Below, piece by piece: positions 10,115 to 13,859 of a stretch of DNA of 13,859 nt. The position numbers and the translations under genes are program-made. This DNA is from Dactylosporangium sp. AC04546 (GTDB lineage: Bacteria > Actinomycetota > Actinomycetes > Mycobacteriales > Micromonosporaceae): the NCBI RefSeq assembly GCF_022095675.1, contig NZ_JAHYSG010000187.1, positions 1 through 13,859 on the forward strand, given 5' to 3'. Every line of letters starts with the position of its first letter. Position 1 is the stretch's first letter. The notes under the pieces were generated by a model. The model searched no databases. It worked only from the letters and a program-made list of their open reading frames with translations, and had not been told where the DNA came from.

Positions 10115-11014
10115 GTGTACCCCTCGGTGCCCGCCCGGTTGACGACCCTGCTCGTCGTCGCCGTGACCACCGTGTTCGCCGCTCCCGTGCCGGCGCGGGC
10201 CGGCGATCCGGTCGGCTGGACGCCGGTCTTCTCCGATTCGTTCGACGACGCCGGCGCGCTGCCGGCGGGGTGCTCGGCCTACGAGGACGGCGCGTCGTTC
10301 CGGCGTGAGGCGGTCACGGTCTCGGACGGGCGGTTGCGGCTGGCCCTGCGCCGCGCCAGCGGCGGATACGTCACCGGGGAGCTGCGGTGCCCGGGGGTGG
10401 CCCAGCAGTACGGCCGCTACGAGTTCCGCGCCCGGGTCCCGGTCGGCGCCGGGATCGAGTCGACGGTGCTGCTGCGGCCGGTGGACGGCGCCGCCGCAGA
10501 CCACGCGTCGGAGCTGTCGCTGGTCGCGGCGGACGGGCAGGACCAGGCCTTCGTCAGCAACGGGGATGGCCGTGGTACCTCCACGAAGACGCTGACCGGG
10601 AAGTTCCGCGACTGGCACGTGTACGTGATCGAGTGGGCGCCGTCAGGCTTCCGGGTGACCGTCGACGGCACCGAGCGGCTGGCCGACCCCGCCGTCTCCA
10701 CCGCGCAGCGCTGGTTCGGCTTCGCGGTCACGACCGGCGCGCGGGCCGGCACCCCGGGCCCGTCGACGCCGCTGCCGGCCGAGTTCCAGGTCGACTACCT
10801 GCGCATCTGGGCCTTCACCCCGGTCTCCTCGGCCCCGCCGCCGACCGCCTCACCGTCCATTGTGGATGGCTCGCTGCGCCCGCCCGGCGGCCCCACGCAC
10901 CGTTGGTCGATGTGGCTGGCCGTCGCCGCGGCGGCGATGGTCGGGGTCGCGCTGGTCGCCCTGGTGATCCACAAGACCCGCCCGCACCGCCCGCCGTCCT
11001 CCCACCGTCGCTGA
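10115..11014 (+). CDS. Membrane-anchored GH16-like (concanavalin-fold) protein with degenerate active site (299 aa)
   Basis: An N-terminal signal peptide (LTTLLVVAVTTVFAAPVPARA) leads into a GH16-like beta-sandwich: FSDSFDD, VSDGRLRLALRR, GELRCP, YGRYEFRARVPVGAGIES, DWHVYVIEWAPSGFRVTVDG and FQVDYLRIW are the usual family landmarks. The catalytic motif, normally E-x-D-x-x-E, reads E-L-S-L-V-A (Glu133, Ser135, Ala138). The nucleophile position is kept, but the Asp and the acid/base Glu are lost. A C-terminal helix (about 264-286, WLAVAAAAMVGVALVALVIH) with a basic tail anchors it in the membrane, giving a type I topology. It is probably a carbohydrate-binding surface protein, not an active glycanase; this is inference. 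The GTG start is supported by the signal peptide and by a -10 box placed for a leaderless transcript. Its stop codon lies inside the first unit of a 14-bp repeat array. Confidence 0.8.
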   Translation: MYPSVPARLTTLLVVAVTTVFAAPVPARAGDPVGWTPVFSDSFDDAGALPAGCSAYEDGASFRREAVTVSDGRLRLALRRASGGYVTGELRCPGVAQQYGRYEFRARVPVGAGIESTVLLRPVDGAAADHASELSLVAADGQDQAFVSNGDGRGTSTKTLTGKFRDWHVYVIEWAPSGFRVTVDGTERLADPAVSTAQRWFGFAVTTGARAGTPGPSTPLPAEFQVDYLRIWAFTPVSSAPPPTASPSIVDGSLRPPGGPTHRWSMWLAVAAAAMVGVALVALVIHKTRPHRPPSSHRR

Positions 11015-11133
11015 TGCACCGACCTTGATGCATCAGTCTTGATGCATCGCTTCGGATGCATCGGCCTTGATGCGTCGTTTTTGATCCATCAGGCCTGATT
11101 CATCAGATTTGATGCATCAACGCTGATGTGCCA
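11011..11133. repeat. Array of nine 14-bp units with palindromic YTGATGCATCR core
   Basis: Each unit is an 11-base core plus a 3-base variable spacer in strict 14-base register. Cores start at 11011, 11025, 11039, 11053, 11067, 11081, 11095, 11109 and 11123. The best copies read TTGATGCATCA (units 2 and 8); others differ at one to four positions. The central TGATGCATCA is a perfect 10-bp palindrome. Spacers (acc, gtc, ctt, gcc, ttt, ggc, gat, acg) are not conserved. The array starts on the stop codon of the GH16-like gene and ends 97 bases before the epimerase gene. Confidence 0.93.
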
Positions 11134-11230: not shown

Positions 11231-12220
11231 ATGAAGATGCTTGTTCTCGGGGGAACCGTGTTCCTCGGGCGGGCCGTCGCCCGCCAGGCCCGCGACGCCG
11301 GGCACGACGTTGTGTGCGCCGCCCGCGGGGAGTCCGGCGAGCCCGTCGAGGGGGTCGCGTTCGTTCGCGTCGACCGGGACCGGCCCGACGGGCTCGACGC
11401 GCTCGACGGCACCTTCGACGCGGTCGTCGACGTCGGGCGCAGGCCGAGCCACGTGCGGCACGCGGCCGAGTCGCTGCGCGGCCGGGCGGGGCACTACACG
11501 TTCGTGTCGAGCTGCTCGGTCTACGCCGACGCGGCCACTCCGGATCAGACGGTGGCGACCGCGCCGGTCATGGCGCCGGCCGAGCCGGGCTTCGACGACC
11601 CGTCGGCGGACGCGGAGACGTACGGCCGCTGCAAGGTCACCTGTGAAGATGTCGTTACCGGCACATTTGGTACCGAATCCGCCTTCATCTGCCGGGCGGG
11701 GCTCATCGTCGGCCCGGAAGACCCGACCGGGCGTTTCGACTACTGGGTGCGACGGCACGCGCGCGGTGGCGAGATCCTGGCCCCCGGTGCGCCCGAGGAG
11801 CGCGTCCAGCTGATCGACGTGCGCGACCTCGCCGACTGGATCATCCAGGCGGCCGAACGCGGGCTGGCCGGCACGTTCGACGCGATCGGCGCTCCGGTCA
11901 CCCGCCAGGAGTTCCACGCGGGGCTGGCCGAGGGCGCACCCTCGGCGCACGAGCTGACCTGGATCCCACAGGAGTTCCTGGTGGAGCGCGAGGTGGCGCC
12001 CTGGTCCGGGCCGCGGTCGCTGCCCCTGTGGCTGCCGCTGCCGGAGTACGGCGGGTTCCTGACCCGGGACGCCGGCCCGTCACTCGAGGCGGGGCTGCGG
12101 ACCCGCCCGCTGGCCGAGACGGTGGCCGATACACGCGCCACGCTGCGTGACGAACCGCACAGAATCGGCCTGACCGAGGAGGAGGAAGCCGGGCTGTTGC
12201 GGGAATGGCACGCCCAGTAG
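11231..12220 (+). CDS. NAD(P)-dependent epimerase/reductase, extended SDR family (329 aa)
   Basis: The start is ATG 11231 with GAGGA (11219-11223) seven bases upstream. An upstream in-frame ATG at 11126 would read through the repeat array and is rejected. The Rossmann dinucleotide motif is at the very N-terminus (MKMLVLGGTVFLGRAVARQA, GGTxFLG form). The active-site Ser strand YTFVSSCSVY and the catalytic YxxxK pair (TYGRCKVTCE) are present. A later VQLIDVRDLADWI segment is typical of atypical/extended SDRs that act on nucleotide sugars or similar substrates. The C-terminal part (WIPQEFLVER, then LPLWLPLPEYGGFL) resembles actinobacterial epimerases of unknown substrate. It is cytosolic and appears monocistronic: a repeat array lies upstream and a 395-base gap downstream. 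Family assignment is firm; the substrate is not known. Confidence 0.88.
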   Translation: MKMLVLGGTVFLGRAVARQARDAGHDVVCAARGESGEPVEGVAFVRVDRDRPDGLDALDGTFDAVVDVGRRPSHVRHAAESLRGRAGHYTFVSSCSVYADAATPDQTVATAPVMAPAEPGFDDPSADAETYGRCKVTCEDVVTGTFGTESAFICRAGLIVGPEDPTGRFDYWVRRHARGGEILAPGAPEERVQLIDVRDLADWIIQAAERGLAGTFDAIGAPVTRQEFHAGLAEGAPSAHELTWIPQEFLVEREVAPWSGPRSLPLWLPLPEYGGFLTRDAGPSLEAGLRTRPLAETVADTRATLRDEPHRIGLTEEEEAGLLREWHAQ

Positions 12221-13654: not shown

Positions 13655-13714
13655 TCCCATGATCATGGGAAGGATCCGGCTGTCATGGCAGCCAGATGTT
13701 TCCCTTGATCATGG
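13655..13714. repeat. Two CCWTGATCATGG palindromes
   Basis: TCCCATGATCATGGGA (13655-13670) is a perfect 16-bp palindrome. CCTTGATCATGG (13703-13714) repeats its core with one mismatch, 46 bases further on. They differ from the TGATGCATCA family nearby. The role is unknown; intergenic protein-binding sites or dispersed repeats are possible. Confidence 0.7.
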
Positions 13715-13793: not shown

Positions 13794-13859
13794 TCGCTTG
13801 CCCCGCATCACCCTTGATGCATCAGATCTGATGCATCAAGGGTGATGCGGGGCAAGCGA
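13794..13859. repeat. Perfect palindrome of at least 66 bp carrying the 14-bp lattice
   Basis: The arms 13794-13826 and 13827-13859 are exact reverse complements, with the centre at AGA|TCT and no spacer. The right arm is cut by the window end, so the palindrome may be longer. Inside it, four cores in 14-base register start at 13800, 13814, 13828 and 13842. The two central ones read TTGATGCATCA and CTGATGCATCA, separated by the spacer gat. No gene is visible from 13561 to the window end. Confidence 0.92.

Follow-up and report, generated by a model that had tools for sequence, protein, structure and literature searches.

A 14-bp lattice of palindromes matching a probable MarR-family operator recurs across the genome of one Dactylosporangium species

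A row of short palindromes, set at exact 14-bp steps, follows a GH16-like gene in a 13,859-nucleotide stretch of DNA from Dactylosporangium sp. AC04546 (hereafter the window). We propose that this array is likely to represent abutting 14-bp sites for dimers of a MarR-family regulator and that the same lattice of sites recurs at about 27 other intergenic places. Judging from sequence comparisons, we conclude that the most economical account would be one in which the operator lattice of a local MarR repressor was multiplied genome-wide in one species. The lattice, its spread, its association with the regulator, the conservation of cores over spacers, and the absence of arrays from most sister sites are direct results of computation.

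In the window, a sequence-only reading had described nine 11-base cores, separated by 3-base spacers and running to position 11133. The exact 14-bp register of that description stands, but the array comprises eight 10-bp cores, TGATGCATCA (0 to 2 mismatches; starts at 11012, 11026, and so on to 11110), with 4-base spacers; the ninth position, at 11124, carries the half-core TGATG alone, and 11128 is where the final complete unit stops. TRF also detects the array, with periods of 14 and 28. As the same reading held, the array begins on the stop codon of the GH16-like gene (TGA, 11012-11014), a gene whose protein has only Dactylosporangium entries among the named members of its 42 listed relatives. 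The same codon terminates the gene, one residue after a conserved His-Arg, in the five congeners with a readable gene end (G001, G002, G003, G005, and G006; not G004). The CACCG preceding it (11003-11007) is conserved coding sequence in congeners, and hence only the TGATG of the apparent first unit belongs to the array. No match in the window reached the Rfam gathering score. A second array lies at the very end of the contig within a perfect 66-bp palindrome, which takes in non-array flank and may be a fold-back artefact of assembly formed around a genuine array end (Table 1).

Table 1. Coordinates of the arrays, neighboring genes, regulator, and other repeats
Feature	Location	Strand	Remark
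Window array	11012..11128		Half-site TGATG on the stop codon plus CATCA-N4-TGATG units, some mismatched
Window array units, 14 bp each	starts 11017, 11031, 11045, 11059, 11073, 11087, 11101, 11115		
Apparent first unit, CACCG-TCGC-TGATG	11003..11016		Left half coding, conserved in congeners
Last full unit, CATCA-ACGC-TGATG	11115..11128		Right array end
GH16-like gene (PF00722)	10115..11014	+	Upstream of array; TGA stop is the array's first TGA
NAD-dependent epimerase-family gene (PF01370)	11258..12220	+	Downstream; called start ~130 bp past array end
Second window array	13806..13847		Three units as assembled; contig end, within perfect palindrome 13794-13859
MarR-family winged-helix regulator (L109), own genome	G000:C162:20834-21244	minus	
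ATGATC/GATCAT hairpin family	window 13659-13712; L008 303-356; L070 1784-1837; L020 4043-4096; L065 4702-4755		
ACGTTGGTCGAT-arm hairpin repeat	L016 4172-4229; L069 9506-9563; L144 3377-3434; L149 3312-3369		

The core had been taken as the center of the unit; the array ends favor instead a palindrome centered on the spacer, CATCA-N4-TGATG. Most arrays open with CATCA and close with TGATG, and of 72 array ends, 49 have the whole CATCA-N4-TGATG unit, 5 are core type, and 18 are unclear. The N4 bases are near random (51% G+C), with a mild purine-purine-pyrimidine-pyrimidine bias. The least variable half-site positions, ATC (positions 2-4) and GAT (positions 11-13), are the same in 172 array units and in 41 marR operator units from other genomes, and the motif agrees position by position between the two sets (units scoring under 7 of 10 are excluded from the array-unit count). 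Winged-helix dimers usually recognize half-sites spaced near 9 bp. The CATCA-N4-TGATG unit would place the half-sites of a dimer 9 bp apart, as against only 5 bp for the halves of a core-centered unit, and by simple arithmetic, neighboring dimers on 14-bp steps would sit 1.33 helix turns round. A nucleic acid structure, which had been entertained as the alternative to a DNA-binding protein, receives little encouragement from the units: although the window array would fold strongly as RNA (-57 kcal/mol; z, -5.7), compensatory changes were found neither across the spacer nor across the core, and no pair of positions covaries above shuffles; hence, recognition of the DNA by a protein appears to be the constraint. 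An RNA-hairpin unit with a 5-bp stem and a 4-nucleotide loop was rejected as the main constraint, with covariation no better than in shuffles.

Across the 13.02 Mb of the genome, the exact core is found 71 times and its reversed control not once, which is not a chance result. All but two lone copies (L014 and L017, without a lattice and left out of the array counts) lie in arrays, of which there are at least 38 at 29 places (36 arrays supplied 172 scored units, and the remainder are at L105 and L109). Going by the sister's contig, L008 and L109 are two sides of a single marR/hydrolase region, and the about 27 other places lie between unrelated genes. The loci examined cover 71/71 exact cores, 126/128 two-core approximate matches, and 98/99 two-unit approximate matches. 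The spacing is anything but random: in the loci compared, pairs of cores (at most 1 mismatch, within 60 bp) are offset by 14, 28, 42, and 56 bp only (71, 36, 17, and 11 pairs). In an 800-kb sample of 40 regions, chosen blind to the motif, there were no chains for the real core or for five control cores; thus, the arrays are rare as well as nonrandom. The 11 largest contigs contain no exact core, and in six contigs (C34, C35, C145, C162, C172, and C187) an array comes within about 450 bp of the contig end; the assembly may therefore lack some arrays.

The link to a MarR-family regulator was first noticed in a motif scan of a species-genome collection, which may omit this genome or near ones and in which four further records contained the exact core pair. 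In two of them, from Nocardia jejuensis (L022) and Catellatospora tritici (L021), the pair sits, by eye, in a divergent promoter between a MarR-like and an alpha/beta-hydrolase-like gene; the hydrolase is Pfam supported in the Dactylosporangium genome itself (L008). The other two, from Streptomyces (L023 and L024), have core pairs without any linked MarR gene. The regulators at L109 and L022 match PF12802 and PF01047 above the cutoff, and a profile search with the regulator matched eight PDB sequences named as MarR-family or transcriptional regulators. The association was then examined across the family by protein search. Five of seven genomes of the genus, including that of AC04546 (50% identity), have a close homologue (E ≤ 2e-30), and in all five the lattice precedes its start. 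Among 200 genomes of the family, the regulator was found at E ≤ 1e-20 in 21 genomes (22 loci), and in 19/22 the lattice lies just upstream of the start (best unit pair at least 15/20); L140 and L141 are without it, and L142 is weak (14/20). None of 15 loci of unrelated MarR proteins has a lattice (at most 12/20), even though these controls were scanned over 400 bases and the homologues over 250. As judged by eye, many of these marR promoters have a -10-like TAnnnT after their last unit. Relatives of the regulator number 759 at E ≤ 1e-10, and those named among the 120 listed are from actinomycetes.

The converse survey agrees. The two-unit lattice (at most 2 mismatches) is present in 18 of 200 family genomes, with 99 matches in the AC04546 genome, 5 in its sister G002, and 1 to 3 in each of the rest. 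It occurs in 17/21 genomes with the regulator versus 1/179 without (Fisher p, 6e-20, assuming that the regulator and lattice surveys drew the same 200 genomes). In the other 15 genomes with both regulator and lattice, beyond AC04546 and G002, all matches are at the marR promoter; a single match in G070 comes without such a regulator, and four of the 21 (G016, G027, G091, and G138) have the regulator without a two-unit match at this threshold. At 1 mismatch or fewer, the lattice was confined to the AC04546 genome in a phylum sample (1/396).

MarR-family autoregulatory operators typically lie in divergent promoters shared by the regulator and its target. The present system resembles them in its winged-helix MarR protein, in the palindromic sites just upstream of its start, and, where looked at, in the divergent hydrolase gene. 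Since the regulator's own promoter carries a row of these sites, the protein very probably represses its own gene as well as the hydrolase gene opposite. The arrays differ from usual MarR operators in that the sites abut one another at 14-bp steps and in that arrays recur at about 27 further intergenic places in this species. Taking these findings together, we suggest that dimers of the regulator would bind CATCA-N4-TGATG units side by side at 14-bp steps in every array, that the same row at its own promoter would bring about autorepression along with repression of the opposite hydrolase gene, and that the operator lattice would have multiplied in one Dactylosporangium lineage to places without a visible common gene function. 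The earlier suggestion of selection by a DNA-binding protein on both core and spacing thus gains support, with this regulator as the likely protein.

Comparison with the sister genome G002, which differs by about 20% at 4-fold sites, bears on both the conservation and the spread of the arrays. It covered 25 places, namely, those of the 20/22 array flanks that could be placed in G002 (L010 and L016 were unplaced), together with L002, L007, L008, and the window, with L068 counting as two places. Contig ends truncate L009, L069, and the first pair at L068, and the comparison did not take in the second array of the window. Of the 22 places judged, 18 have no array in the sister, several of them cleanly; L002, L007, and L008 are shared, and L105 is unclear (an 8/10 trace). 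Single-unit remnants rise above background at 2/19 sister sites (L018, 9/10, and L105, 8/10), and at L001, where the sister has no array, the next gene also differs. The operator at the marR promoter is common to both genomes. Over ten aligned units in four shared arrays, cores agree at 96/100 positions and spacers at 20/40 (p, 9e-10), as the claim that cores are conserved without their spacers would have it; these figures omit the third unit of the L007/G002 alignment, which is partly degraded; its inclusion gives 102/110 and 24/44 (p, 2e-7). Cores evolve more slowly than 4-fold sites and spacers, in this small sample, apparently faster, although turnover of units could mimic rapid spacer change. 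At L007 there are 14 listed units, and its G002 counterpart has about three. At the orthologous place, the window array is absent from all six congeners, as is that of L011 (best two-unit score in the retrieved loci of 14/20 or less, versus 19 in AC04546).

The 18 sister places without an array are also what one would see with a REP- or MITE-like dispersed repeat, whether selfish or neutral, that resembles the operator by accident and spreads into intergenic DNA. Its position bias would recall that of REPs, which according to PMC3733652 are short, species-specific intergenic palindromes, often 3' of genes or between convergent ones, and other hairpin repeats do occupy the same gaps. We nevertheless regard this reading as unlikely. 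The Y1/RAYT-type transposase domain (PF01797) was not found in the genome, in a search whose control recovered it in 5/14 genomes; the same source does describe CGTC REPs without a dedicated transposase. Consecutive spacers match between arrays as often as in shuffles (40 matches versus a mean of 40.8), leaving no copy-and-paste trace; single spacers show a small excess of 4/4 identity between arrays (1.25% versus 0.66%). Cores are conserved and spacers are not. The match of consecutive spacers to shuffles leads us to reject a common origin of the arrays by copying, and such flank similarities between loci as were inspected come from overlapping DNA within a single locus, from low-complexity sequence, or from other hairpin repeats. 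An IS or MITE can be dismissed, as the sequence-only reading had already surmised for IS, given the lack of consistent target-site duplications or shared ends at nine junction pairs (L011, a direct 7-mer; L105, 10 bases of array sequence; L068, 9 low-complexity bases; the other six, 0 to 6 bases). The arrays further differ from REPs in the failure to find a RAYT-type transposase, the strict 14-bp lattice, the random spacers, and the match to a regulator's operator. By eye, the 14-base array flanks share no GTAG or CGTC tag.

The positions of the arrays bear on two further readings. The 24 places with both neighbors comprise 8 convergent, 13 tandem, and 3 divergent gaps (gene calls come from our own script, and single distances are therefore rough). 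One possibility is a genuine expanded regulon, with the regulator controlling the promoters next to the arrays: a 5' end falls within 20 bp at five of the 24 places, and arrays precede two thiolase genes (L004 and L009). It seems quite unlikely, as divergent places are few (against 8.3 expected under length weighting, p 0.016, and 5.6 under gap weighting, p 0.15), eight places separate convergent genes, and the Pfam domains of 36 scanned proteins, a part of the neighbors, have no common theme. That most arrays are not at promoters also weighs against the MarR-operator account itself, as do the strong predicted folding of the window-array RNA and the finding that the arrays are not copies of each other. 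Alternatively, the arrays might be transcription terminators or RNA hairpins, any two cores pairing in the transcript to halt polymerase or shield mRNA ends whichever way transcription runs. The predicted folding of the window-array RNA fits this, as do a terminator-like site with a T-tailed stem at 11055-11076, the excess of convergent gaps (3.5 to 4.2 expected; length-weighted p 0.016, gap-weighted p 0.043), and the 12/24 places that overlap or lie within 20 bp of a 3' end. We consider it very unlikely all the same: palindromic arrays fold by construction, the compensatory changes are missing, the arrays themselves supply TGA stops, and RNA pairing would require neither one core everywhere nor the same lattice at the marR promoters of other genera. 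At 3' ends, the excess over the 1.8 expected by length does not reach significance under gap weighting (8.5 expected, p 0.10).

Returning to the MarR-operator account, our best, if tentative, guess is that much of the regulator may be sequestered on the dispersed arrays as on a DNA sponge and that these arrays might also serve as local roadblocks at gene ends. The many extra sites could titrate a repressor as do the decoy sites of PMC7686491, where synthetic sponges are repeated operators with random spacers; those are engineered, plasmid borne, and have 10- to 30-bp spacers, and titration in the present case is hypothetical. More speculative, and in our estimation doubtful, is a natural genome-wide sponge or architectural network in which the chromosome was seeded with about 27 oligomeric arrays that bind a local autorepressor, by a process other than copy-and-paste that keeps the 14-bp lattice and randomizes every spacer, so as to turn a two-gene switch into a dispersed nucleoprotein system. 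If the MarR-operator account is true, it would furnish a natural case in which a single bacterial lineage has multiplied a transcription factor operator into many nonpromoter sites, and one for which the regulator, its ancestral operator, and near-empty sites in the sister are all available. Such a system would allow tests of how arrays of binding sites originate and spread and of whether natural decoy arrays, dispersed over a genome, tune a repressor, and it would offer a ready operator motif for a MarR regulator recurring in many actinomycetes. Among the titles listed in literature searches, none concerns this motif or dispersed MarR operator arrays; the matches listed for TGATGCATCA include a paper on a Treponema DtxR-like repressor (PMC2628430).

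Several other repeats were encountered. A second family of dispersed intergenic hairpins, with ATGATC/GATCAT ends and GGGAA..CTGGCTG arms, lies near several arrays, and a further hairpin repeat with ACGTTGGTCGAT arms is present in both AC04546 and the sister (Table 1). In G002, the site orthologous to that of the window array (L086) carries a different inverted repeat with CGATCTTGCAGT arms. Elsewhere in the window, at 1940-2181, a gene for a Gly/Ala-rich protein contains 27/54-bp tandem repeats encoding AGPGGAYV motifs.
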